From Symbiodinium sp. CCMP2592 (lineage: Eukaryota > Sar > Dinophyceae > Suessiales > Symbiodiniaceae): a stretch of 64,000 nt of DNA. Position numbers and translations under genes: made by a program. Position 1 is the first letter of the stretch. Every line of letters begins with the position of its first letter. The stretch is from NCBI GenBank assembly GCA_905221615.1, contig CAJNDT010001324.1, positions 601,001 through 665,000 on the forward strand. The letters are read 5' to 3'. Of the stretch, positions 22,740 to 47,130 are shown in pieces. The notes beneath the pieces were generated by a model. It made no database searches. It saw only the letters and a program-made list of their open reading frames with translations, and was not told the DNA's origin.

Positions 22740-22934
22740 CCAGGATGCCACGGAGTTCGAAGCCGTGGAGGCTCCACAGAACATCCTTGCAGAGGCCGGA
22801 GGACGGGAGACGGCTGTGTGCAGGCGTGCGCTTGCCCTTCGAAGAGCTGAGGTGCGCTTCGGCGACATGGGTGTGCGCCTCGTGGACGACTCCAAAGAGG
22901 ACACGGAGGATGCAGAGGTGCACTTTTTGATGGG
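22740..22934 (+). CDS. Candidate exon upstream of the retroelement
   Basis: The frame reads EELQDATEFEAVEAPQNILA then RRAEVRFGDMGVRLVDDSKE and ends near an ATGGG|GTAACT donor-like site at 22935. The VRFGDMGVRLVDD stretch with alternating hydrophobic residues fits a beta-groove protein such as VPS13, but this is weak evidence on its own. A direct repeat (GGTGTGCGCC at 22869 and GGTGTGCACC at 22951) suggests that part of this may be spliced differently. The join to the next exon is not resolved: the gap is only 17 nt. Confidence 0.35.
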
Positions 22935-22951
22935 GTAACTTCAGAAGCAAG

Positions 22952-23100
22952 GTGTGCACCGGAAATCCAGCAGGTGTTGCGGCTCTTCATCCACAGCACG
23001 GAGCTGACGGCGACCGTCGCAACTGGCCTCGACTACCGTGGAAAGTCCTCTGCCAACCTCAAAATAGCAGGCCGGCAGGGGCAGTTTTCGGAGGCAGAGA
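22952..23100 (+). CDS. Probable exon, possible VPS13-like protein (last exon before the retroelement)
   Basis: It follows GCAAG and ends at a strong AGAGAG|GTGACT donor (GT at 23101). The frame reads EIQQVLRLFIHSTELTATVA then TGLDYRGKSSANLKIAG. The helix followed by alternating hydrophobic strands ending in a Y-x-G-K type turn is the kind of repeat seen in bridge-like lipid transfer proteins. The retroelement begins 51 nt into the following intron. Assignment to the same gene as the C-terminal VPS13 exons at 58-59 kb is inference from strand, style and pattern. Confidence 0.45.
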
Positions 23101-23151
23101 GGTGACTGGCCGGCTATCGCACGAGGTTTCGCAAACCGGGGTTCGGACACA

Positions 23152-23268
23152 GTAGTAACTTGCTACCAAGGCTTGCCGACTTGCAAGACTTATGTCAGGA
23201 GACGTCTGCCAAAATGGCTCTGCCATTTTGGCCCAAGATCGTGGACCGTGGGTCCTTCTAAATTTGTT
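23152..23268 (+). repeat. Split direct repeat A1
   Basis: From the T of TAGTAAC to ATTTGTTA. From 23157 on it is identical to A2 (28791-28902) over 112 bp. It holds two stems: GCCAAAATGG/CCATTTTGGC (23207-23216 with 23222-23231) and GGACC-GTG-GGTCC. It ends about 35 nt before the ATG of the gag-like ORF, so it may act as its leader. Confidence 0.9.
23221..23236 (+). promoter_or_regulatory. DinoSL-like sequence in A1
   Basis: GCCATTTTGGCCCAAG matches the last 16 nt of the dinoflagellate spliced leader (GCCATTTTGGCTCAAG) with one mismatch. It could be a relic of a trans-spliced leader captured by reverse transcription. The inverted partner GCCAAAATGG stands 15 nt upstream, so the match forms one arm of a stem. 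Confidence 0.6.
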
Positions 23269-23302
23269 ATCGCTCCCGCTTTTTCCCTTGCGACTGTCGA
23301 CC

Positions 23303-24360
23303 ATGGCACTCACCCCCGTTGCTAATGTCGATGACGTCCTTGTCTCCAGCATGGAGACGGTTGAGAGTTTGATCCCCGCACGCGATACAGGGGACAGTGA
23401 TCCGGAATGGGAGAAGCCTGACGATGACGTTGCCTTGGCCCGTGCTACCTTGGCACACAATGTTCATGCCCACGAGGATGAGACAGCAAACACCGCCCTG
23501 GCTTCCTTCACGGCTCTGGAGGTGGATGACACCAGCATGGCTCTTCGGCTCCAGGAAATGGAAGCGGCCATGTCCCGCCTCTTGGCAAAGGGCGATGAGA
23601 TGGTGGCTGTCACTGGCCACAGGTGACTTTGTCCCTGAGGAAGGTGCTCCTGATGATCCCATGGGAAGCGAGGATGTGCCAACCAGGTGACTTTGTCCCT
23701 GAGAGAGGTTCTTCTAATAACCCAAATAACCACGCCAACAAGACCAGACCTTACTCTGCCCTACCCGCCGGCACCCTGGAGGAGAAGGTCTTTCACATCG
23801 AGGGCTTCCCTGAGGACTTCCCGGGCATCGGCAAGAAGAGTGCGGACTTGGCCCAGCAGTTGACAAAGGAGGAGATCGCATCCTTGTTCTCCAAGCTCAA
23901 ATCGGAGCAGTGGAATCGCCCGGCCGTGGAGAGGGTCCTGGAGGTGTATCATATCTACAAGCGCCAGTTGGCCCAGGAGAAGATGCTGGCTGCCCCCTAC
24001 AACCGTGCTCGCAGAGGGGTCGGACACAGCAGCATGGGTCAGCTGGACCGTGGCAGCACTGGGGCTACCCTCATGTGCCCTAACTGCTTTTCGGATTGGC
24101 AACGGCAGGACAACAAGGTCGAGGGGAAGTGCAAGCTCTGCCAGAAGTCCGTCATTGCAGTGGACAAGGGCCCACCCTCGGCCGAGATCAAGCTCGGCTC
24201 GTCTTCCTGGCGGATGTTTTGTGGCCCCAGAGGTGTCACAGAAGGAAGCTGCCTCCGTGGACATTGGCTCGTGGGCCCAGCCTCCTCCCAGGCCAACAAA
24301 CAGACCAGAAGGAGCTCAGCTTTGCCGACCAGGTGCCTATGGCCCTGAGGCTTAGCCTGG
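23303..24360 (+). CDS. Gag-like ORF, N-terminal part with zinc finger (frame-broken)
   Basis: The likely start is the ATG at 23303, 35 nt after A1 (MALTPVANVDDVLVSSMETV). This frame runs to a TGA inside hairpin core H1 (23624). After H2 the coding character moves to another frame: GTLEEKVFHIEGFPEDFPGI, then a helix-rich stretch with KRQLAQEKMLAAPYNRARRG. A CPNC-x16-CKLC zinc-finger-like motif lies at 24076-24141. Near 24200 the best frame shifts again, to FVAPEVSQKEAASVDIGSW, which runs into hairpin core H3. The position after the A leader and the Cys motif suggest a nucleic-acid-binding Gag protein, but I recognise no specific family. Frame changes at or near the hairpins could mean splicing of mini-introns or decay. 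Confidence 0.5.
23620..23637. repeat. Hairpin core H1 (GAC/GTC variant)
   Basis: CAGGTGACTTTGTCCCTG: a 7-bp stem with bulged T and TTT loop. It sits where the first Gag frame meets TGA. The change GCC to GAC is matched by GGC to GTC. Confidence 0.85.
23684..23701. repeat. Hairpin core H2 (GAC/GTC variant)
   Basis: The same 18-nt core as H1, 64 nt downstream, so the two give different reading frames. The arms pair only weakly. Confidence 0.85.
24330..24347. repeat. Hairpin core H3
   Basis: CAGGTGCC-TAT-GGCCCTG. The left arm GAGCTCAGCTTTGCC pairs imperfectly with the right arm GGCTTAGCCTGGCTC. The Gag frame changes here. Confidence 0.85.
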
Positions 24361-25351
24361 CTCACACGGTGGCAACCCAACCCTTCGACGAGGTGACGTT
24401 TGCCAACAAGGAGGCGGGAGAAAGACCCCACCTCAGAGACGACTGGCAGCCGAGCCAGGAGACAAGGGCTTTCCACCCTCAGCTGTCGGCCGCAATGGAC
24501 ATCACGAAGAAGAGCTCGGGCCCAGTCGATAAAGACGCCAAGAAGCCCACGGAGGAAGAGTTCCTGGACCACATCAACCCCCAGCTGGATGTAATCGTCG
24601 AAATGCAAGCGGGCGCCCAGAGTGTCGAAGAGGCCAAGGGCGCGTCAATCCTTCGCCAGCTCGACACAGAGAAGCTTCGCTCCCTTCTGAAGCGAAACTA
24701 CCTCCAGGGCCCCGGGAATCAGGGAGAGGAGTTTTTCTCTGCACAGACTACCTTGGAAAAGGCCAAGGCCTCTAACAAGCGCATGCAGGATGAGGGATCC
24801 CAGCGCTCCCAACTCCTCCGGCCTGTGGCCGATTCTATCGATACTTGGGGTACCCAGTTGCGCGCGGCCCTCGAGATGAACGTTTTCAATCCGGAGAGCC
24901 CGCTCAAGGAGATGGAGCTTGATGACATTGAGGCCATGAAGGAAAGGTACATGAACACAAAATTCCTGCTGAATCAGAGCAGGAATCCTTTCCCTGCCTC
25001 TTTGCTGCAGAACGAGTCGCCCGGGACTCCGGCGAGGGGCTGTCGTCCACAGGTGCCTTTGGCCCTGAGGAGCAGTCCCCGGAGGCAGTTCTGGGAGTTC
25101 CAGTGGGCTCGGTCGAGTTCCAGATCCTGCGCCTCAAACGTATCATCGAGTTGCACATGGGGGAGCAGCGCATGATCGGGGGCAAATGGAAGCAGCTGCC
25201 TGGACCCCTCGAGGCCCCGATGTGGGCAAAGCCTCTCCCCGAAGGGGAAAAGCTCATGCTGGAGATGATCCGATTACTATCAGGGCCCACAAAAGAGGGG
25301 CCAAGAACAAGCAACAGAACCTGCAGCGACGAGATGACCATCGCGAATTGA
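24361..25351 (+). CDS. Gag-like ORF, middle part
   Basis: A clearly coding, highly charged helical stretch: MDITKKSSGPVDKDAKKPTE, HINPQLDVIVEMQAGAQSVE, LRQLDTEKLRSLLKRNYLQG, LEMNVFNPESPLKEMELDDI. It reads in one frame from about 24360 to 24960. The frame then changes before 25010, where a strong acceptor-like site (CCTCTTTGCTGCAG) and a small palindrome (ATTCCTGCT-GAATCAG-AGCAGGAAT, 24962-24986) occur. It continues through hairpin core H4 as VGSVEFQILRLKRIIELHMG and EQRMIGGKWKQLPGPLEAPM, ending at TGA 25349-25351. No known domain. It is probably one Gag protein with the parts on either side. Confidence 0.5.
25050..25067. repeat. Hairpin core H4
   Basis: CAGGTGCC-TTT-GGCCCTG. The left arm CTCCGGCGAGGGGCTGTC pairs with the right arm AGCAGTCCCCGGAG. 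The frame is the same on both sides. Confidence 0.85.
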
Positions 25352-26385
25352 TGAAGGAGGCCAAAGAGTTTGTGATTCTGCATGACCTTCCGGTGCCTAC
25401 GACGAACCAGGAGTGGAAGCAGCTCTACCGTGAAATCGGATCATTTTTCGCTGCCAAGGTCTTCATCAACCGTACGCCGCAGGTGGTCCTAGACCTCCCT
25501 GTAGCTGACATCCATGACTCCAAGCAGCACATGCGACTGCGAGCCGTATGTGATGCAAGGATCACCCTGCCGTTGAAGGCCTTCCGTGACTTCCCGGAGA
25601 TCTACAACTCGCTCTCCCACTCTTTGGGGCAGGACTCGGTGGTGGAGATCAAGATGGCGTGGCGCTGCAACACCGTGCAGTGGTGGACAGCCCGCCTCAA
25701 GCCGGAGTACGCCGGCCCCATCTACCGGAAGCTTGGCTACTCGGAGAGCCACATCAAAGGCTTGGGGGACATGGACGCCTCAGCTGCCTTTGGCGCTGAA
25801 AGGATCCCTCTGGACCCCGGGTCGGAGCAGGAGCGCTCCCTCCCGCCCATCACTCCAGACAACGTTTCGAGTGTGGCCTCGGACGACTACAAGAGGAAGA
25901 ACGTGGGAGACAAGACTGCCCACGTGTTCTGGGCCAAGATGGAGTGTGGCCTGGTCCTCAGCTCCGTTTCCCCGTGGGAGATTGTTGACAAGAAGAAGGG
26001 TGAGACTCGTGGGGGCTACGTTTGCCGCCACTGCAAAGGATTCTGGCGAAGTGGCAGAGGGGCCAGCCGTTTCCTTCTCATCACGGGGGAGCACAAAGGG
26101 AAGTCCGCCCAGCTCCAGCTCATCTTGGACGAGCCCCCTCAGCGCCTCTGCGAGGCCTGGGTGAAGGACCGGATCGAGTTATAGAAGAGGGTGGAGCCCA
26201 CGGCGGCCCCTCGCGATCGCTCCCTTCGTGTCAACCCCAGCCTCAGCTCCAGGCTCCGGTTCAGCAAGACGAACCTCATGGGCCAGGTCTCCGACATGAT
26301 CTGGTCGGTGGTGCTCTCCAACCCGGAACGGGATGGCCTCAAGAACATCCATGAGCTTGCGGCATCCCGGGTCCGTCCGGCCTGA
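25260..26385 (+). CDS. Gag-like ORF, C-terminal part with Cys motif and internal stop
   Basis: This is the longest clean reading in ORF1: ELMKEAKEFVILHDLPVPTT, KVFINRTPQVVLDLPVADIH, MAWRCNTVQWWTARLKPEYA, and a possible zinc motif CGLVLSSV...YVCRHCKGFW (CxxC near 26023). The frame meets a TAG at 26182-26184, but the same frame goes on protein-like for another 67 codons (SLSSRLRFSKTNLMGQVSDM) to a TGA at 26383-26385. The TAG may be a single mutation or a suppressed stop. It overlaps the preceding part because a frame change lies between about 25260 and 25340. Function unknown. It could be a Gag C-terminus or a structural protein. Confidence 0.5.
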
Positions 26386-26430
26386 GCCCTGCCCCTTTTT
26401 GAAGAAGGCACGTGGAGGGGAAACCCCTTC

Positions 26431-26448
26431 CAGGTGCCTATGGCCCTG
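26431..26448. repeat. Hairpin core H5 (longest palindrome)
   Basis: CAGGTGCC-TAT-GGCCCTG flanked by GGAGGGGAAACCCCTT and AAGGGGGTTTCCTCTCC, giving a nearly perfect palindrome from about 26414 to 26466. A pyrimidine-rich run and GGAG|G (26494) follow, like a splice acceptor. Confidence 0.92.
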
Positions 26449-26497
26449 AAGGGGGTTTCCTCTCCCTTCGGGTTGCTGTTGCTTTTCTTTGGAGGTC

Positions 26498-26515
26498 TTT
26501 GTGCCTTTGGCCCTG
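26498..26515. repeat. Hairpin core H6 (degenerate)
   Basis: TTTGTGCC-TTT-GGCCCTG: the inner stem is kept but CAGG is replaced by TTTG. Outer GGTC/GACC can still pair. Confidence 0.65.
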
Positions 26516-26622
26516 AGGTGACCGGTATTAGTGATAGTACCTACAGTGCTCAGGACTCGGGCCATGTCACAGGCCTTTTCTTCGGCAAGAGGAATACCCA
26601 TTGCGGGAAGGGGAGGGACTTC

Positions 26623-26640
26623 CAGGTGCCTTTGGCCCTG
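26623..26640. repeat. Hairpin core H7
   Basis: CAGGTGCC-TTT-GGCCCTG with left arm GGAAGGGGAGGGACTTC and right arm ATGGTTCCCCCCCCTTTTCC, which pair over about 16 bp with mismatches. Confidence 0.88.
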
Positions 26641-26750
26641 ATGGTTCCCCCCCCTTTTCCTCAAAAAGGGGAAGGACTACTTGCTCGACCTGCCGGCCTA
26701 CAGACCATCGCCTCGTGCGAAAACAAGGGCACTTGGATTGCATTGGGCTG

Positions 26751-26754
<4 letters not shown>

Positions 26755-26811
<57 letters not shown>
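26755..26811. repeat. (CT)n microsatellite
   Basis: About 27 CT units without interruption, 75 nt before the recombinase reading frame. The tract is pyrimidine-rich on this strand and could serve as a polypyrimidine tract. Confidence 0.97.
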
Positions 26812-26812
<1 letters not shown>

Positions 26813-26884
26813 GTAGTCTCCTCGGCTCAGGATGACTGCTTTTGTATTTTGCTGCCCGTCCCCTTTTGGGCGGGCCTTGGTTAG

Positions 26885-28407
26885 GTCATCTCTGCTACCA
26901 ACCAGCGGGCCCTGGAACGTGGCCTGCGTGAGAAGTGGGGGGAAAGGCTCCTCTCGTACCTCCTGCCGGCTGCAGGGCGGATCCCGCATATGGCGGCCAT
27001 AATGCCCTTGGGTACCACGCTCGTCTCTCTTGAGCTCAAGGGGGAGTTCATGGATCTCTTAGGAGATGCTAGGTTCCGCACTCTCAGGATGCGATGCCTC
27101 TCCTATGAAGAGCTCAGGCGCCTTGGATTCACGGCCATACCCTGGAAGGAACAGGATGTTCGTTCTCTCCTCAACACTCTCCGGGCTCAGGAGGTGTCCC
27201 CTCACAAGCTTCAGCAGGTGTGGGACACTCTCAAGTGGTTTGGTAAAAAGTTCGGGCTCCTTGCGGTCCTTTGTGGTTCAGGCGGAAGAGGTGGCGGCTC
27301 GCCCGCTCTCTAGCTCGGCCACAAGAATCGAGCTCATGGATGCCTTCATCTGCGGCATTGCAAGGTTCCAGCTCGGTTCCAGTGCCCGCTTTAGTGACCT
27401 CCAACATACCAGCCCGGATACCCTCAAGGTGACCTCCTCCACCATCGAGTTTTCAGCATGGCAGACCAAGACCCATTCGGCAGTGGCGATTCTCACAAGA
27501 AGCCCGTCCCCCTCATCTGCCCCAAGTACTCCTTCTCGGGCAAGGACTGGTGGACTCCTCTCCTCTCCACTTGGCGCAAGCTTGCGGCGACCCCCATGTT
27601 CGATGCCATGGACTACCTCATCCCGACAGTGGGTAAGGATTATGACGGCTTCATCGCCAGACCCGCCACCTCGCAGCGCGCTCTGAACTGGTTGCGCTCG
27701 GCCATGTCCAGACAGGAAATCGACAAGGCCCTGTGGGAGGGCCTCACATGGCACTCCTTCCGTGTGTTCATGCCGGACTGCGCCTTTCAAGCCCACGTCC
27801 CTCGTGACCAACGACAATACCTTGGGAACTGGATGGCTGAGAGTACTGCGCATGTCTACACCCGGGAGAAGAGGAATGTGGTCTGCGCCATCTGGGAAAA
27901 GGTCACCTCAAACCTGGACAATATCGACACGGCGGGCACCCGCACTTCTGTCATCGACCTCTCTCGCGAAGAACCGCAGCACCCCCACCCTGCAGCTGTT
28001 GGGCTCCCAGTCGCAGGTGCCATCGGCCCTGAGGGGGGGAGCCCTCCTCGTCCATTGCAGGGCTCATCCCCTCACTCTCACAATGCAGACAGCCCGGCAT
28101 CGACTCAGATACCAGCGGCGAAGTGCCTCCGCCCCAAGGGCCTCTCACTCCAGTGGCTACTAAGGCGGCCCGAGGCAACAGAAAGCGGATCCATCTTCTG
28201 AACCAGGACCTCCGCGCTGTGGGCTGCGGCTGGAGCCCTTCCATGGACAAGGTGGAGGCCCTGAACGCCATCGACTACCAGGGCGACGTGGATTCTTACA
28301 ACCTGTGTGCTAGGTGCTTCCTTCAGTTCTCTTTGCCGGCAGAGTTTCGAGTGGAAGATCCCCTTTTGCGGGAGATTCCAGTGAATCAGCCTCCTCAAGT
28401 AGCCTGA
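26885..28407 (+). CDS. Tyrosine recombinase (YR), two frame changes
   Basis: The catalytic set is complete across frames. The first Arg is in SSARFSDL (codon 27387) and the Lys in WQTKTH (codon 27468). HxxR is in WHSFR (His 27752, Arg 27761), the Trp in LGNWM (27830) and the Tyr in HVYTR (27857). The order and the 35-residue H-to-Y spacing fit DIRS-type recombinases, which integrate circular DNA. The N-terminal part (NQRALERGLREKWGERLLSY, VRSLLNTLRAQEVSPHKLQQ) looks like a core-binding domain. Frame changes lie at about 27255-27275 and 27472-27490. After hairpin core H8 the frame changes again and continues as GIDSDTSGEVPPPQGPLTPV to a TGA at 28405-28407. If 28017-28060 is removed as an intron the join is in frame. 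Confidence 0.75.
28014..28031. repeat. Hairpin core H8 / candidate 44-nt intron
   Basis: CAGGTGCC-ATC-GGCCCTG. GGGCTCCC on the left pairs with GGGAGCCC on the right. GCAG|GTGCC (donor) and CCATTGCAG|G (acceptor at 28060) flank 28017-28060, whose removal restores one frame through the end of the recombinase ORF. Confidence 0.85.
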
Positions 28408-28541
28408 CTGACCACGGCCTCGGAGGCAGAGAAGGTCACCTACCAGGACCTTGACAAGGCTCTGGCCTCCCAAGGCCAACCGTAGATGGACGACATCTTT
28501 CAGTTTTGGGGGTTCATTTGTGCCGCCCATCCTTCGGCTTC

Positions 28542-28785
28542 GGCTTCTTTCTGGACGGCACAAAATTTTGGGACTCTTTTCTGTACAAGGAGGGTTCCCG
28601 ATCCCCAGGTGCCGTAGGCCCTGAAGGAGGGGACCCTCCTCTGTTTCGAAACGACCTCTTTCTAGACAGAGGTCTTCGACCGAAGGAACATCCCGGGAGT
28701 CGGCAGCCACACCAATCCACCATGCAAAAGAGGGCTTGTGAGCATGGTGCTTTTGGTGTTCCATTTTCATGCGGATTTCTGACAT
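28542..28785 (+). repeat. Split direct repeat B1
   Basis: 244 bp matching B2 (32622-32865) with one difference (T/G at 28760/32840). It contains hairpin core H9 with long arms, and a second stem GACCTCT-TTCTAGAC-AGAGGTC. The end GACAT abuts the TAGTTAC core and A2. Confidence 0.92.
28606..28623. repeat. Hairpin core H9 in B1
   Basis: CAGGTGCC-GTA-GGCCCTG. Arms GGAGGGTTCCC and GGGACCCTCC pair almost perfectly. It lies in a terminal repeat, so it is copied with the element. Confidence 0.9.
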
Positions 28786-28902
28786 TAGTTACTTGCTACC
28801 AAGGCTTGCCGACTTGCAAGACTTATGTCAGGAGACGTCTGCCAAAATGGCTCTGCCATTTTGGCCCAAGATCGTGGACCGTGGGTCCTTCTAAATTTGT
28901 TA
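28786..28902 (+). repeat. Split direct repeat A2
   Basis: Identical to A1 from 28791 on. It is fused directly to B1 through TAGTTAC, giving the B1-A2 junction expected to bridge the element ends during circle formation. It ends 17 nt before the ATG of the second ORF block. Confidence 0.92.
28855..28870 (+). promoter_or_regulatory. DinoSL-like sequence in A2
   Basis: Same 16-nt near match as in A1. Its presence before the second ORF block suggests that both blocks carry the same leader. Confidence 0.6.
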
Positions 28903-28919
28903 CCCGCCCGCCCTTCCCG

Positions 28920-29158
28920 ATGGCTGCTGCAGTTACTCTGGCCAAACCCCCTGAGGCCATCCCGGATGCTTATGCCGACAACATTGCCGAGCTCCACTCG
29001 TCTGTGGCCACTCTGTTTGCAAGGAAGCAGATCCCCTACTCGGTCCAGGCAACTGTCCCGGCAACTGTGGACGCTCCCACAACTGTCCTGTCACCAAGGA
29101 CGGCTGGGTGTGCAATGCCCATAGTCCTGACAACTGTCCCTACAAGTGAGGACCTCCA
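28920..29158 (+). CDS. Start of second ORF block; Cys-rich alternative frame
   Basis: An ATG at 28920, 17 nt after A2, opens MAAAVTLAKPPEAIPDAYAD then NIAELHSSVATLFARKQIPY, much as the first ORF starts after A1. From about 28955 a second frame (not from this ATG) is very rich in Cys and His (GNCPGNCGRSHNCPVTKDGW, VCNAHSPDNCPYK) and would make a zinc-knuckle-like domain, ending at TGA 29147-29149. The repeats of CAACTGTCC (four copies at 29050-29140) drive both readings. I cannot tell which is used. Hairpin cores H10 and H11 follow at once. Confidence 0.35.
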
Positions 29159-29162
29159 GTCC

Positions 29163-29180
29163 CAGGTGCCTTCGGCCCTG
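29163..29180. repeat. Hairpin core H10
   Basis: CAGGTGCC-TTC-GGCCCTG with weak arms. It follows the first reading of the second ORF block, which ends shortly after it. Confidence 0.85.
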
Positions 29181-29228
29181 AACTAGGGGAAGTGTCGGAG
29201 TCGGTGACACACGTCGCCCCCTCCACAT

Positions 29229-29246
29229 CAGGTGCCCTTGGCCCTG
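29229..29246. repeat. Hairpin core H11
   Basis: CAGGTGCC-CTT-GGCCCTG, 66 nt after H10. Arms pair moderately (ACGTG with CACG). It separates the Cys-rich start from the methyltransferase-like ORF. Confidence 0.85.
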
Positions 29247-29289
29247 AACACGAGAACAAGCACGGGACAGATCGCGATCCCCCCATATT

Positions 29290-30045
29290 ATGAAGCCTGT
29301 CTCCATGCCAGGTGGGAACGCCACGCATGCGGGCCTGCAGCCCTCCACTATTGCTCTCTCGGATGACAAGCCCTTCTCTCTCGGGCCTTGGATTGAGAAA
29401 CATTACCCGGGCTCTCTGCCTGCAAACTGTTCTCCTGAATGGCTGAATGGAGTCCCTGACCGCCTGGCCCAGAGACTCCTTTGGTCTCCTTCCGAGTGCA
29501 CTGCCAGCATTCCTCATGGTGCCATCATTTTGCCATTCGCGGGTCGGGAAGATGCCTCCTCTCTGGAAGCGATCCTCCATGCTCAAGCCCCGGAACTCTC
29601 CTCGCGTGTTCTGGCTTTTGATTCCTCTAGGAAACCCTCGGGTAAGGACCTCCTTAACGACACCCTGTTTGGGTCTCTCTGTGCCTCGGCGCTGCAAGGA
29701 AACATCTCCTTTGTGGGAGGATGTCCGGATCTCAAAACCTGGGGGTTGGATAGATGGTTCCAGGATTCAGGTACTTTCCACGCACTTAGGGCCCGCTCTG
29801 CAGAGAATGCCTGGGGCATTGCCGCCCTTCCTGCGGCGACACTCCACTTGGCGGATGAGGAAAGCACCCTTCTCCTTAGGTTTCTTCTGCTTGTATGGCT
29901 CGCCTTCAAGGCGACCTCGCCCAGTGCTTCTCCTAAGGTCTTCTGCTTCCTGGAGCTGAGGATCCAGCTCGGGGAGCCACTTCCCCATCCAAGAGACGCT
30001 CCTCTTCGGCCTGGGCCACTCCGGCCCTGCATGCTTGGACCTTAG
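29290..30045 (+). CDS. Methyltransferase-like domain ahead of RT (degenerate motif)
   Basis: The ORF reads VLAFDSSRKPSGKDLLNDTL, then ALQGNISFVGGCPDLKTWGL, then a helical segment (LLLRFLLLVWLAFKA) and VFCFLE. An aspartate after a hydrophobic strand, a GG-x-P loop followed by TW-x-x-R, and a later FLE strand recall the cytosine-methyltransferase-like domain found in dinoflagellate retroelement proteins, where the loop reads GGPPC. Here the loop is GGCPD, so the catalytic Cys context is altered. The start codon is uncertain and the product may be part of a polyprotein with RT. It could also be a distant unrelated domain. Confidence 0.4.
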   Translation: MKPVSMPGGNATHAGLQPSTIALSDDKPFSLGPWIEKHYPGSLPANCSPEWLNGVPDRLAQRLLWSPSECTASIPHGAIILPFAGREDASSLEAILHAQAPELSSRVLAFDSSRKPSGKDLLNDTLFGSLCASALQGNISFVGGCPDLKTWGLDRWFQDSGTFHALRARSAENAWGIAALPAATLHLADEESTLLLRFLLLVWLAFKATSPSASPKVFCFLELRIQLGEPLPHPRDAPLRPGPLRPCMLGP

Positions 30046-30191
30046 ACCTAGGCCTTGGGGTTCTGCACTTTGATCTTTGTTCCTTTGGTTGGGTTATTAG
30101 TCGTCCCTCTAGAGCGGTCACGAACCTTCCCCTCCAATCCTGGGAGGGGAAGATCTGCACACACACTCATCACCCTAAACCGGATCGTCCC

Positions 30192-31200
30192 GTGCCTGGG
30201 GACGCCCGACGACCTGAAGCCATGCTACAGAGTGTCGCATCGGCGTTGGCCGAAAGTCTTCGCGACACCGGTGTTTCAGTGAAGGATTCGCCATCAGGTC
30301 TAGCCTCCGAACGCGTTGCTGATCCCTCGCTGGGACAGGAGCGTCCTCACTGGGCGGCTCAAGGGTCAGCACCCCTCGGGGCGGCTGTTCAACCCTCCCT
30401 ACCCTCGCCGGGTGCAGGTACCCATGCAGGCGATCACTTGCTCGCTGCTACCCCTATGGTCGGGTGTGATCGGCCTTCGACGCTGCCTCTCTTTGAGAAG
30501 CTTACCCTTGACGATGCAACAATGCGTGTGGCACACGGCTTTAAGGTTAGGCCCCTAAGGGGTGGAGGAGGCAAGACCTCTCCGGGTAGGACCCCTCCAC
30601 ACCTGCGCAGAGGACTGACGGCTCCTGCTCTGGGTAAGTTCATTCGAGAAAAGGCGGGACCCTTGGTCCCCTCTTTTCTAGCCTCCACGGCCGCGGGTGC
30701 CAAGCAACACCCTTTCCCAGAGTCAGTTCTCAAGGAGATTCGTGATTTCATCATGCCCAAACATTCCCAACCGGATGCAGGACAGCCCTTTCACTTGGAC
30801 GTGATCAGGAAACTCCTGTGTGACATCCAGGATGTCGATTCTGAGTACCCACTGATACTCAAAGAAGGTGTCCCTTTGGGAGTGGATACCCCTACTCTCC
30901 AATCTCCGGGCGTTTGGCCTCTTACCTTCGTAGAAGAAACTCCCCTGGGCATGGTTATTGGACCATGCACACGCGCGGAAGCAGCAGCGCACTGTCAGTG
31001 TGCGGAGGAAGAGCTCTGCCCCTGCCCCATGGCGGGAATTGATGAGTCGGATAAGATCCGTTCCATCTTTGATGGGTCCAAGGGAGGTGCTAATCTCCGC
31101 ATACAGCAGAATACAGTTGAGAAAACCACGGCTCCCACTGTCATGGACTGCGTCCAATGCCTACACTGGCTCCGGGCATCCCGTTCTCGTGGGAAGCCAG
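30192..31200 (+). CDS. Reverse transcriptase, N-terminal part (fingers)
   Basis: The frame is open from about 30192 to TGA at 31368, but the RT-like part ends near hairpin core H12. It includes EYPLILKEGVPLGVDTPTLQ, then a Cys-rich loop (CQCAEEELCPCPMAG), then DESDKIRSIFDGSKGGANLR and EKTTAPTVMDCVQCLHWL. KIRSIFDGS-x-G-N corresponds to the R-x-I-x-D-x-S fingers motif of DIRS and LTR-type reverse transcriptases. The upstream 150 residues are of low complexity. Beyond H12 this frame loses protein character. The palm continues in another frame. Confidence 0.7.
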
Positions 31201-31215
31201 GTGCCTATGGCCCTG
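31198..31215. repeat. Hairpin core H12 / candidate intron in RT
   Basis: CAGGTGCC-TAT-GGCCCTG. Outer CTCGTG/CATGAG and GGGC/GCC blocks can pair. RT fingers lie upstream in one frame and the palm downstream in another. Removing 31201-31292 (CAG|GTGCC to GGAAG|AC) joins them in frame. Confidence 0.88.
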
Positions 31216-31270
31216 ACCCTGGGGAGCATGAGACCTCGGTTGCCTCGGGGTCCCGTGAAACCGCCCCTAG

Positions 31271-32599
31271 GATGATCTTTCTGAAAAGGAAGACTCCAGC
31301 GCCGGTTCCGACCGACCCTGGAGCTTTCCGGGCTCTGATGAGGATTGGATCTTACTCAAAGCTGATGTGACTAAGGCGCACAGGAGAATCAAGATTCTCC
31401 TACGAGAGTGGCGTTACCAAGTTGCCCAGCTTGGTGAAGAATGGTGGGTCAACACCGTAGGCACCTATGGAATGGCCAGTGCCCAGCTTTACTGGGGAAG
31501 GATGGCTGCCATCCTTCTTAGGATTGTTTATGCCGTGTTTCCAGAGGTCGACTGGGGTTTTGTTTTTGTCGACGACTTTGCCTGGCTACTCCGTAAATCG
31601 AATTCCCCTCTGCTGGCAACAGCAATTTGCTTGCTGCTACTTGCTCTCGGCACTCCTCTGAGCTGGAAGAAAACCCTGCTTGCTGAGGTCAATACGTGGC
31701 TTGGCTTTGTCATTGACCCAAAAGGACCCTGTGTGCAGATGGCCCGAGACAAGCACCTGCTTGTCATCGGCATTCTTGAAGAACTAAAAAGCGGTAAAGT
31801 CATGTCGGCTTCTCAGATCGCTAGCGCTTTGGGTAGGCTGCAGTGGGCGACAACGGCCTGCCCCCTCACTAAGCCTTTCCTCCAACCCTTTTGGGCTTGG
31901 AAGAAGGCCTGCCTGACTGCAGGACGTCCGGGTAAGCTTATCCGTGCACTCTCAGCTCTGCTCCTCTCTCTTTTTGACCAGAAGTTCAGACAAGCATCGC
32001 CGTATGCCCCGCTTGCCATTTGGTCGGGGGCAACTGATGCCAGTGCCTCAGATGATGGCAGCGCCTATGTGGGCGGCTGGCTTTCCAACGTGGACTCCCC
32101 GTCCAAGTCGGAAGTCTTCTGGTTCCACTACCAGGTCACTGCAGAGCGACACCCATGGGCCTTTGACAAGGGCTGCCCGAAGAAGCGCATCGCCGCCCTC
32201 GAGATGTTTGGCACCCTAATCCTTTCTCACTTTCTCATGGAGAAGGCACCGGCGTTCATCCCGAACCTCAGGCTCCCCCTGGTCAGCGACAACCAAGGGA
32301 ATGTTTACTCGCTCCTGAACGATAAGTCCAAGAGGATGCCAACGTCTGTCATCCTCATGGAAGTACTGTTCCAGCTGCACCGACATGGTATGCAGCTCGC
32401 TCCCTCCCACGTCAAGCGTGACTTCAACACGTGGGCTGATGATCTGACTCATCCCAACTTTCAAGGTTTCACCCCATCTCTCTGCTTGCCGGTGGAACCC
32501 GTGCTCAAGCATTTTTCCCTAATCCGCTCTATCCTGGAAGATCGTATTTTCGACGATCCTTCTGACCTCACCCATGGGCCCGCGCAGGGCGCCCGGTGA
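31271..32599 (+). CDS. Reverse transcriptase palm and RNase H
   Basis: In this frame (TAG at 31268-31270 just before) motif A is WILLKADVTKAHRRI with Asp at 31364, and motif C is FVFVDDFAWL with the two Asp codons at 31571 and 31574. RNase H follows: Asp in GATDASASD (32036), Glu in AALEMFG (32201), Asp in LVSDNQGN (32288), Asp in WADDLT (32438). All catalytic residues are present. The stop TGA at 32597-32599 lies 22 nt before B2. The first in-frame ATG (31367) falls after motif A, so translation must enter from the upstream part, either by removal of 31201-31292 (which joins the frames) or by frameshifting. Confidence 0.85.
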   Translation, partial: DDLSEKEDSSAGSDRPWSFPGSDEDWILLKADVTKAHRRIKILLREWRYQVAQLGEEWWVNTVGTYGMASAQLYWGRMAAILLRIVYAVFPEVDWGFVFVDDFAWLLRKSNSPLLATAICLLLLALGTPLSWKKTLLAEVNTWLGFVIDPKGPCVQMARDKHLLVIGILEELKSGKVMSASQIASALGRLQWATTACPLTKPFLQPFWAWKKACLTAGRPGKLIRALSALLLSLFDQKFRQASPYAPLAIWSGATDASASDDGSAYVGGWLSNVDSPSKSEVFWFHYQVTAERHPWAFDKGCPKKRIAALEMFGTLILSHFLMEKAPAFIPNLRLPLVSDNQGNVYSLLNDKSKRMPTSVILMEVLFQLHRHGMQLAPSHVKRDFNTWADDLTHPNFQGFTPSLCLPVEPVLKHFSLIRSILEDRIFDDPSDLTHGPAQGAR

Positions 32600-32621
32600 G
32601 GATGTGGTTGCCTCCTGTACA

Positions 32622-32865
32622 GGCTTCTTTCTGGACGGCACAAAATTTTGGGACTCTTTTCTGTACAAGGAGGGTTCCCGATCCCCAGGTGCCGTAGGCC
32701 CTGAAGGAGGGGACCCTCCTCTGTTTCGAAACGACCTCTTTCTAGACAGAGGTCTTCGACCGAAGGAACATCCCGGGAGTCGGCAGCCACACCAATCCAC
32801 CATGCAAAAGAGGGCTTGTGAGCATGGTGCTTTTGGTGTGCCATTTTCATGCGGATTTCTGACAT
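32622..32865 (+). repeat. Split direct repeat B2 (right end)
   Basis: Second copy of B. It ends GACA-TAGTGAC and then unique flanking DNA (TAACATGG). The RT/RNase H stop lies 22 nt before it, so B2 would be the 3' end of that transcript. Confidence 0.92.
32686..32703. repeat. Hairpin core H9 copy in B2
   Basis: Same sequence and arms as in B1. Confidence 0.9.
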
Positions 32866-33150
32866 AGTGACTAACATGGTGCTTACGTACACGACTCAGA
32901 CTGTCAATCGCTTTCCTTTGAAGACAGGTCGTCTGGGTGGTGTGGAGGCCACGCACATGAAGCAGGATGTCATCAAGCAACTTGACATGACTTTGTTCTC
33001 AGTCGGTGTAGGCGGGATCATCCAAGATAAGTCTGTGTTGTTCCATCCGACTCGGATCCATGTCCAATCCTTCTTGCCTGCTTACTGTGCTGCAGAGTTC
33101 CATTGTCCTCACGCCGGTCTTAAAGGCAAGTAGAGGGCAGGGAATTAAGT

Positions 33151-44400: not shown

Positions 44401-47130
44401 AGCTTCACTCGTCATGGGCTTGGCTGTAGATCCGTGAGAAATAAGTTCAAGCTTCTAGGATTTTGACTCGGCAGCGGAGCGGAATCCAGCCTCGTCCAAT
44501 GTTTGCACTCCCTTTTCTTGCCTACGCCTAAAGTTCGTGAAGCCGAGCAGGATGCGAAACCAAGATCCGACGTCTCCTTCTAAACGTGATTGCACGAGGC
44601 GGCTCCGGTGCCGAAGCCACGCTTTCGCAACCTGCGAACGGACATGCTGGTGGAGGTCGGTGACATCCATTAACAAGAGTAAGTCCAGGCAGAATCAAGA
44701 AAAGCATCAGGAGGAGTCGTGCAGTAGCAGCAGCCGTAGTTGCACGTTTCCGTAGAGGGAGCGGTGTAGCGGTAGCAGCATAGCGGGAGTGGGAGCAGGA
44801 GCGGGAGGAGGAGGAGGAGGAGGAGGTCGTTGTTGTTGTTGCTGCTGCTGCTGCTGCTGTTTTGCTGCCACCGCCTTGCGGCGGCGGTAGTTCTGGTGTT
44901 GGCGATAGCAGCAGCAGTAACAGCAACAGCATCACAACAGCAGCGGCTGCCGCTGTTCGCTATATGGTCATGTGCGTCTGCAGGACCATGACATCAACAG
45001 TATCGGCACTAGCCGGCAAAAAATGTTTGACTGTTGAACACGACACAAGGAACCGCGGAAGAAGCATTCAAGAACGGGACCAGCTGCTCCCTAAATCGCC
45101 AGACTTGCTTTCCGATTTGCAATTTCGAGGATGCCATTAAGCCGGCCCAGAAGAAGAAAGCCCCGTGCTGTGGGCCACGGCCTTAGCTCTCAAAACTGCA
45201 TCTGAGCACCATTGACATGTTATTCATCCTTTCATGCCTTTTCTGGCGTTGTTTGTATCCCTCGTAATTTTCTCAACATTCGTTTTTGTTATTGTTGATT
45301 TGCCAGCTTGTGTTCTCGTCCTTGTTCTAGTTTTTGTGATGCTGCTGGTTCAGCCTTGATGCGCATCTTCACGTGACACATTCTGTTACTGTCCAGCCAA
45401 AGCAATGCGGAGCAACAAAACAGGACATGTCATGGCGAAACCAACAGTCTCTACTTGGAGCATACTCGTAAATCGTAAGCGCCCTGCTTTACTCCACAGC
45501 CTATGCAGCAAGACAGCTGACTATCTCCTGGGCTCCCTTCAGCATGATAGCATCTAGACAGTTCATGACTGTTCACTTCAGTGCCAAGGGCTACCTGGCA
45601 GTGCACTTTGCATCTAGAGTCAGAGTCTTCAACGACACCAAGACATGCCACTAAGACTAGGTCATAGCTCGCGTGTTCTGGACGCCCAAAACGTGCTTGC
45701 ACTTCCACTACTTGTGAGAAGCTCAGGGGGGCGCCGCGCGTGTCGGAGCCAGAGGCTGCCAGTCGGGCGATGGGGGATGGGGGGACTTTCAGAGGTGTGG
45801 AGGTTCGCTGTCGCAAGCCCTCTTGAATGTAGCAGTAACGCTTAAACAACGGGGGCTGAAAGTCACTTTGACCAGACTCTTGGCCCTGAACACGCACTCT
45901 GAGCGTTAGGAATCAATGACAAGCACCACATGTCAGAAAATCCCCTGATTGCAGGAGGCTGCAGAGCAGCTGCCAGCAGCGTGCATGTTGATTATTGAAC
46001 AGGGCCTAGGCTAGGCACCTGTGCAGACATCCGAGTTGAAATGTGCCAAGTGGTTCTTTGCAGAACCTTGGGTTATGTGATTCTCGCCAGATGCCAGTAG
46101 ACTTGTTGAAGACTTCGCTTTCCTTCGTGTCCTTCGCCTACCGGCCGAGCCGCACACCTTCACCATCTTTCACCATCTTTTCTGTCACCGAAGGGGGGGT
46201 AAGGGTAAGTCTGAGAAACTCAGCACACACTCTGTAGGAGTCGAAGATAGGGAAAGGGCCTCCGAGCGAGAACGGGTCGAATCTGAGGAGGATGCTGCAC
46301 ACATGTCTGGACGTTTCTGGCAAAGCGGCAAGCTTCGTGAGACAGGCAATGTGACGATGCTTCTTGGCCGCTTCTGGCAACGTTAGGAGACACTGCTTGT
46401 CATCGGAAGCCTCTGTGGCCATTGCTTCCCGACACGCCCGAACCCCGCCGTTCCGAGGCTCGTCCTTCGGCCCATGCTCTCGCTGTTGAACGCCCTGCCC
46501 GAAGGGGCAGTGACTCTGGCCTACCGTGCGCGATCCAAGGCTCTCCGCCCTGCGGACACTGTCGGTGTCCTTTTGTTCAGTTCTACCCACTCCGACTGTT
46601 GAAAGCAGTGCGGCGATCCTGTGTTCCGGTCGTCACTGGAACCACTGAGTTTGATGCATGTGTTTCCCTTGAATCTTCTCGCCAACGGCTTTCGCTTGCC
46701 GAAGAAAACCAGCTTGTGGGGTTGAGTGCCTCCAGTGGTTGGTGGCCTGGATCAGGCCATGATCCGCACGGGCGTCCTGAGAGACGCGACGGCCTGGCAG
46801 GAGGCTGGCTGCAAACCGTAGGTCGACTCCGATGTCGACTCCGTTCAAGTGAAAAGGTCACATTGACATGTGCACTCCAGCAGGAAGGAAGTCCGAGGGC
46901 GTTATGGATTCATGTTTAGTGGGGCATGTGATTTTCCAAGTAAGTATGCAGGCACCCGGAGACAGCCCAAAGTGGCTACATCCGGCTTCTCGTGGGATGA
47001 TCTGAAACACCGAATGGTTCGTGCTCAGGTGGAGATTCCCAGCATGGTGGCCTGTCCCGGTTGGACTCAGCGAATTCATCTCATGGCGTTTCGAGTTGGG
47101 GTCGCATTTGGCTACGAATTTGCCCCGAAG
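38440..47130. other. Spacer with few supportable exons
   Basis: One possible exon ends at a strong GGGAAG|GTACGTG donor (41552), reading VCLEDEIFLHRPRQLFRGLQ then KTGK. Otherwise only short frames and triplet tracts (44800-44940). The distance is long for one intron, so exons may be missed. Confidence 0.35.
44795..44865. repeat. Triplet tract (GGA)n-(TTG)n-(CTG)n
   Basis: Consecutive runs of GGA, TTG and CTG triplets, giving poly-Gly, poly-Leu or poly-Cys frames. Confidence 0.9.

Follow-up and report, generated by a model that had tools for sequence, protein, structure and literature searches.

Bulged hairpins dispersed along a DIRS-like retrotransposon of Symbiodinium as a possible RNA signal

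The DNA considered here (the window) is a stretch of 64,000 nucleotides from the dinoflagellate Symbiodinium sp. CCMP2592, positions 601001-665000 of contig C1324 (CAJNDT010001324.1). It harbours a DIRS-like (tyrosine-recombinase) retrotransposon of the Symbiodiniaceae type at 23149-32865, along which a short hairpin with one bulged T recurs, always on the sense strand, in 13 fully paired copies and one that is decayed. The hairpin is almost certainly a selected nucleic-acid structure. With a probability of about 0.47, these hairpins form a single family of sense-strand RNA structures that act in cis and are spread over the genomic RNA of dinoflagellate DIRS-like elements. The evidence comes from the constancy of the stem among genome copies and from compensated base changes, seen both in this DNA and in the codons of homologous proteins.

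Hairpin copies in the window

Each hairpin is built of four base pairs, a bulged T, three base pairs and a loop of three nucleotides, followed by A. The initial annotation had proposed a family of cores in the retroelement, and the family is real: the exact form CAGGTGCC-NNN-GGCCCTG occurs at 10 sites on the + strand, all within 23620-32703, and its GAC/GTC variant at two more (23620 and 23684, + strand). One site, 25781, had been missed; it reads CAGC-T-GCC-TTT-GGC-GCTG, a compensated change of G:C to C:G at the fourth pair. The copies, including those with flanking arms, are as follows (RT, reverse transcriptase).

23620..23637, + strand: H1, GAC/GTC variant, from the pattern and structure scans
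23684..23701, + strand: H2, GAC/GTC variant with poor arm pairing, from the pattern and structure scans
24313..24364, + strand: H3 with arms (core 24330-24347)
25030..25086, + strand: H4 with arms, in the gag linker (core 25050-25067), phase 1 in homolog P0122
25755..25825, + strand: X with arms, compensated CAGC/GCTG stem (core 25781-25798)
26412..26466, + strand: H5 with arms, behind the gag frame (core 26431-26448)
26498..26515, + strand: decayed copy, outer left stem lost
26604..26661, + strand: H6 with arms (core 26623-26640)
27996..28048, + strand: H7 with arms, 3' of the recombinase domain, phase 1 in the open frame (core 28014-28031)
28588..28642, + strand: H8 with arms, in repeat B1 (core 28606-28623)
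29163..29180, + strand: H9 core, weak arms
29229..29246, + strand: H10 core, arms unpaired
31178..31236, + strand: H11 with arms, in the RT linker (core 31198-31215)
32668..32722, + strand: H12 with arms, in repeat B2, same sequence as H8 (core 32686-32703)

The annotation had also reported no core elsewhere in the window, and indeed no site with two or fewer mismatches lies outside the element. At three or fewer mismatches the window gives 25 matches against 4.4 (standard deviation 2.1) in shuffles, and the nine of these outside the element each have exactly three mismatches. A scan for structure only (4 bp, one nucleotide, 3 bp and a 3-nt loop, Watson-Crick pairs) recovers 13 sites in the element, every one of them on the + strand; the - strand has none. 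The bulge is T in all 13, in agreement with the earlier statement that this T is always unpaired. The same scan finds seven + and ten - strand sites in the rest of the window, with at most 13 of 18 core letters matched. Allowing G-U pairs adds 10 sites on the element's + strand, none of them T-bulged (23 in total, 13 with T). The base 3' of the stem is A in 13/13 copies, and the loop ends are pairable in 0/13. As for the decayed copy at 26498, a full hairpin stands at its place in one other genome copy and in the P0123 peptide.

Compensatory changes of two kinds are present in the window, namely the GAC/GTC form on which the annotation had based its claim of covariation and the CAGC/GCTG form of site X. 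Among 13 rows (half copy 26498 included, duplicate B copy omitted), two pairs and three cells are doubly changed, compared with 0.3 each in shuffles. Folding of 14 segments, each the core with 28-nt flanks, placed the expected core in the best RNAfold structure of 12; H5 (74 nt) prefers another pair of hairpins, and 26498 lacks the outer stem. Windows of 80 nt with z below -3 on the + strand make up 4.2% of 455 in the element against 1.1% of 2706 in the rest. Folding energy alone is no marker of the family, since several strong windows lie elsewhere. One strong fold without the bulged core (z -4.7) is found at 30641-30720 in the frame upstream of RT, and the strongest fold outside the element (z down to -6.5) at 44701-44960. 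Rfam gave nothing convincing: its single match over 22900-33100 scored 15.7 bits, where the gathering score is 90.

The window copies have the core in common, and their arms are unrelated in sequence. The annotation had held that the two arms of most copies pair with each other. Taken as a set over 12 sites, with the half copy and the duplicate of the B repeat omitted, the arms do pair more than random expectation, although unevenly from site to site. Arms re-dealt among sites equalled the real pairing in 2, 2, 3 and 0 of 20000 permutations at arm lengths of 12, 16, 20 and 26 nt, respectively; shuffled arms did so in 0/2000, and random points of the element in 0/20000. Pairing is strong at H3, H4, H5, H6, H7 and H8 and clear at H11, whereas H1 pairs with short arms only and X with long arms only. 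The pairing listed earlier stands for H3, H4, H5, H7, H8 and H12, with H9 being weak.

Constancy and compensation in copies and homologs

The whole assembly (1.098 Gb, 5383 contigs) contains the exact core 417 times (210 and 207 by strand), against 1 for a reversed-pattern control. The compensated CAGC/GCTG core is found 65 times (33 and 32; control 1), 47 of them with the TTT loop of site X, whereas the half-changed CAGG/GCTG core is found 8 times (2 and 6; control 3, 2 and 1). Copies were inspected at the first 100 of the 417 listed places, in 26 stretches of 15 contigs that total 133,119 distinct bases. These hold 117 distinct core-like hairpins (121 with overlaps): 100 with bulge T, nine with bulge C and eight of X type. 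A further 24 hairpins of the same shape (27 with overlaps) have bulge C or G. By their flanks, 109 of the 121 map to window sites, and the other 12 match the same element at an offset, so that within these stretches the family is confined to the retroelement, as had been proposed. Over this coverage, roughly a quarter of the 417 places, neither of the two outcomes named in the annotation as refuting it (arms pairing no better than shuffled sequence, or a core common outside the element family) was seen. The hairpins lie on a single strand in 26/26 stretches, and no contig of the 15 shows both strands.

Copies were aligned at ten window sites (H1 and H2 yielded none), giving 100 distinct copy-sites with ungapped core; core-gapped rows were dropped, and H8 counts both B repeats of each copy. 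Differences amount to 4/1400 in the stem, 11/100 in the bulge, 35/300 in the loop and 1/99 in the following A, compared with 319/3139 in the arms and 646/4629 and 1431/14102 in the flanks. In the pooled copies, the stem therefore differs 35-48 fold less than the flanks, and two of its four changes retain a G-U pair. The earlier proposal that the structure, and not the arms, is conserved was right. The search pattern fixes stem and bulge alike, yet the bulge varied; ascertainment alone thus does not explain the constancy of the stem. Moreover, copies were collected by RT protein (thirty, with the window itself and seven on pattern-picked stretches excluded). At H11, 21 such copies differ at 0/294 stem positions against 664/4280 in the flank and 118/672 in the arms. 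At H12, 22 copies differ at 3/261, 189/3844 and 15/590, respectively, one copy being cut in the core.

The arms of the genome copies also pair better than expected by drift from the window sequence. Over all sites they score -644.9, whereas window arms carrying random substitutions, matched to the copies in number and kind, score -561.8 (standard deviation 16.2) and reached the real value in 0/200; H6 and H10 contributed no rows. Outside this genome, exact-core matches in IMG/VR (at least 120 stretches) were taken as background, for tblastn with 120 RT homologs found nothing in them.

As the DNA comes from this one genome, stems of other elements were read from the codons of 277 homologous proteins, gathered by RT, gag and recombinase searches (the RT list being 120 of 288). 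The coding core lies mostly in phase 1, NCA GGT GCC NNN GGC CCT GAN, which translates as [SPTA]-G-A-x-G-P-[DE], and its codons reveal the letters at pairs 4-15 and 7-13. Pair 4-15 is compensated as G/P in 36 cases, A/A in 23, V/T in three and D/S in one, against one each of the uncompensated G/A, G/S and D/P. Grouped by flanks, 26/28 are compensated (0/200000 permutations). For pair 7-13, taken with no flank conditions, 54 are compensated (A/G 43, D/V 6, V/D 3, G/A 2) and 32 are not. Peptides matching [SPTA]bA.Gf[DE] are compensated in 76/90 cases, and six of the other 14 represent one conserved recombinase stretch; counted by group and type, compensation stands at 29/38 against 8.3 expected (0/200000).

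Furthermore, when every stem compatible with the codons is admitted, 90 proteins yield 120 7-mers complementary in both halves; 20 shuffles give 26.8 on average and at most 35, and reversed sequences give 16. The 120 include conserved-domain coincidences such as NP.GF (7) and LK.FS (3), which are not read as hairpins. 7-mers with just one complementary half stay at background level (117 vs 133; 423 vs 479). Among the 120 listed RT proteins, 44 linkers could be delimited. A fully complementary 7-mer is present in 24 of the 37 linkers of at least 10 residues, whereas 2000 shuffles gave 0.9 on average and never more than 5; further stem types were first seen there by eye before the rule was coded, the rule table being set by the genetic code. 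At gag site X, the same alignment columns hold AA.GA in the window clade and P0136 or GA.GP in P0127 and P0129. The TA.GV stem is known from proteins only, because its single match in this genome does not exceed the control (4).

Stem and loop also agree within a single element. Stem type agrees in 19/26 within-protein pairs against 9.2 expected, and the loop residue in 11/20 against 2.7 (0/20000 permutations each). The 18 proteins with at least two hairpin peptides include some close relatives (P0028/P0060, P0058/P0067), and of three conserved-domain hits named by hand for exclusion the patterns would catch one. For instance, P0096 contains three GTSGP, P0234 three GD.VP and P0061 two GTFGP; P0073 has both AA.GA and DA.GS, all compensated. 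Such element-wide agreement is compatible either with a reader co-evolving with the hairpins or with the core being copied inside the element; constraint at corresponding sites favours the former.

Possible function and competing explanations

Given the compensation across coding sites, a peptide motif is unlikely; the single strand and one-sided bulge argue against a double-stranded DNA site, and phase preference together with read-through argues against introns. This leaves a structure under selection, either in the sense RNA or in the complementary DNA (cDNA) made from it. In diverged elements, the hairpins occupy corresponding linkers of gag, recombinase and RT. An RNA-binding protein encoded by the element, most likely Gag, could bind the U-bulged stem, and the many copies could act jointly as dispersed recognition or packaging signals by which the element's RNA is singled out and compacted. 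Under this reading, co-evolution of hairpin and protein would give every element lineage a stem and loop of its own. This proposed step of protein recognition and packaging is somewhat short of an even chance. More tentative is a self-recognition code, in which each dinoflagellate DIRS lineage would mark its RNA by about a dozen near-identical bulged hairpins, with stem, loop and reading protein switching together. If true, co-resident element families would keep their RNAs apart, and the codon-constrained linkers of all three genes would serve as docking sites.

Several observations weigh against a family of cis-acting RNA structures. Arm pairing is weak at H2 and H9 and absent at H10, and in the genome copies pairing at H5 and H9 is not kept but goes in the opposite direction. 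At H12, the flanks vary only 4-5 fold more than the stem. Pair 7-13 is far less clean than pair 4-15, with many instances in conserved domains. RT linkers under 10 residues (7/44) have no hairpin, and 13 of the 37 longer ones have no full match, some being near misses. Two more distant DIRS families live in this genome (C1879:915706, C21:333509 and others), a second with 42-45% RT identity and a third at about 30%; one copy of each, at about 43% and 30%, has a short RT linker without hairpin. The AlphaFold model of a gag homolog is too poor (mean predicted local distance difference test, pLDDT, 58.9) to show an RNA-binding fold. The agreement within elements could stem from copying instead. 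Additionally, copies and proteins share ancestry, so the counts overstate independence.

The strongest competitor, still unlikely, is a proliferating miniature hairpin tolerated in linkers, its spread within the element perhaps being due to template switching in reverse transcription. A comparable case is provided by the Rickettsia palindromic elements, short palindromes inserted in frame inside coding genes. The hairpins described here are likewise short, palindromic, in frame and within genes; unlike those elements, they are seen only in one mobile element family and on one strand, with a constrained stem and unrelated arms. Proliferation would suit the agreement of stem and loop within one protein, the several copies in a single linker of P0028, P0073 and P0096, and one presence/absence difference of net 14 residues between P0161 and P0160. 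However, P0160 resembles a loss, since the hairpin peptide is present in its relatives P0163, P0173 and P0269 and, in decayed form, in P0162. A stem more constant than its flanks at corresponding sites is unexpected for inert inserts, the window copies are alike in core and not in arms, and the either orientation expected of such an element is absent from all 26 stretches on 15 contigs. The initial annotation had named hairpin insertion and snap-back copying around a core as candidates; both are possible origins, but alone they do not account for the constancy of the stem (35-48 fold in the pooled copies, 4-5 fold at H12) or for compensated stems at corresponding sites of very different elements. 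Function explains the hairpins better.

Less probable again is an action that bypasses Gag, through RNA-RNA contacts or on cDNA (genome dimerisation, strand transfer or folding of the cDNA for the recombinase). Identical self-complementary stems within an element might pair between molecules, DIRS replication proceeds via unusual DNA intermediates, and the sense-strand restriction is compatible, but the loop varies. A host-directed structure, such as a small-RNA precursor, decoy or shield against silencing, seems improbable; long imperfect stems with internal loops would suit it, though it would have no obvious need for a fixed bulge, a 3-nt loop, a following A and element-specific stems.

Mini-introns or hairpin-guided introns, the first candidate of the annotation, are very unlikely. 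The core starts CAG|GT, and hairpin introns exist in a dinoflagellate, to judge by part of the Amoebophrya introner paper (PMC7789003). Those introners are, like the present hairpins, dinoflagellate hairpins within genes, but according to the same part they are spliced introns with direct repeats, whereas here homologous proteins, including the EukProt gene models P0015, P0049, P0058 and P0067, read through the core. The 46 peptides with a GA.GP stem divide into 39 in phase 1 and seven in phase 2, though both phases are open, and codon-level compensation is located in translated linkers. Finally, a selected peptide motif xGAxGP[DE] can practically be dismissed despite the preference for phase 1, as its residues co-vary as base pairs (GA.GP, AA.GA, TA.GV, GT.GP, PA.GG, VA.GT, SA.GD), the core is kept also in the B repeats and behind the gag frame, and the stem shows nearly no synonymous drift. 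On the whole, the interpretation given in the initial annotation is partly supported.

The host element, known systems and significance

The element has split direct repeats in the order A1, B1, A2, B2 (A..B-A..B), with the following repeats and open frames.

23149..23269, + strand: A1 repeat, 5' leader unit, 98% identity with 28782-28902
25069..26184, + strand: gag-like open frame, stop to stop
27398..28201, + strand: tyrosine recombinase open frame; P0160, a 70% identical homolog, folds like FLP/Cre/XerH
28542..28785, + strand: B1 repeat, 100% identity with 32622-32865
28782..28902, + strand: A2 repeat, from repeat comparison
31271..32599, + strand: reverse transcriptase/RNase H open frame, RNase H part by eye
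32622..32865, + strand: B2 repeat, from repeat comparison

The gag-like frame has no sequence match in Pfam or PDB; a zinc-finger-like motif was noticed by eye in the gag region at about 24074-24150, without confirmation by any tool. The recombinase was not picked up by Pfam or PDB profile search, but the P0160 model (mean pLDDT 72, predicted template modelling score 0.63) matches FLP at 1.8e-4 and Cre at 4.1e-4 (prob 1.00), with TM-scores of about 0.3-0.45 to FLP, Cre and XerH. RVT_1 was found in 12 of 28 aligned RT members (E 0.1 or less; best 3.1e-5) and not in the window's own RT protein, and PDB sequence searches with RT, recombinase and gag gave no match. The RT frame matches proteins from Symbiodinium and other Symbiodiniaceae, and searches of viral and genome contigs with RT and gag returned no relatives. 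Among gag homologs, P0141 carries the species label Marinobacter adhaerens and may come from algal DNA within a bacterial assembly, and P0122 and P0123 are named ppsC yet gag-like by homology.

The element agrees with SymbioDIRS (de Mendoza 2018, PMC5890265), which, in the portion of the paper available, is described as having a shuffled integrase/Pol order and RT scored poorly by Pfam. Both belong to Symbiodiniaceae and share split A/B repeats, a tyrosine recombinase and an RT that Pfam scores poorly. SymbioDIRS is given there the layout A-coding-B-A-B; unlike it, the present element has coding sequence in both A-B intervals (23149-32865), gag and recombinase in the first and RT in the second, as if it were built from two modules that each have a separate A leader and B end. 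The word hairpin occurs 0 times in the main text of PMC5890265.

Two further sequence features accompany the repeats and frames. A long CT microsatellite (26757-26812) separates the gag and recombinase frames. Both A repeats contain GCCATTTTGGCCCAAG (23222-23237, 28855-28870), one mismatch away from the 3' part of what we take to be the dinoflagellate spliced leader, preceded by an inverted copy of that leader's first part; GCCATTTTGGCCCAAG may be a remnant of the leader, or an imitation of it, within the element's 5' unit.

Dispersed packaging signals of RNA viruses, as outlined in part of a review (PMC6281560), offer an analogy, which we draw from that review and from the titles of reports on MS2 (PMC4751978), satellite tobacco necrosis virus (PMC3593212), a parechovirus (PMC5431903) and hepatitis B virus (PMC7612645). 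There, as possibly here, many short stem-loops with a common motif are dispersed along the genome RNA. The relevance of such signals is questioned in places (PMC6475782, in part). Unlike the viral signals, the present hairpins belong to a DIRS retrotransposon, have a U-bulged stem and a free loop, are known from sequence alone, and switch their stem letters by element with compensation. Among the papers listed in searches of the open-licence literature, outside which most subscription papers lie, none describes these hairpins in its title or abstract start, and four spellings of the core are absent from that literature.

The hairpin family points to an undescribed RNA signal which the element may use for recognising its own transcript. 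DIRS elements are little studied, and to our knowledge the question of how retrotransposons tell their own RNA from that of the host is largely open beyond a few yeast and retroviral cases. The motif has base pairs that are readable even from proteins, and compensated variants of it occur naturally; the elements that carry it live in algae of central ecological importance. The motif also shows a route to RNA structures in coding regions from protein sequence alone, and it would make the recognition of own RNA by a retrotransposon testable.

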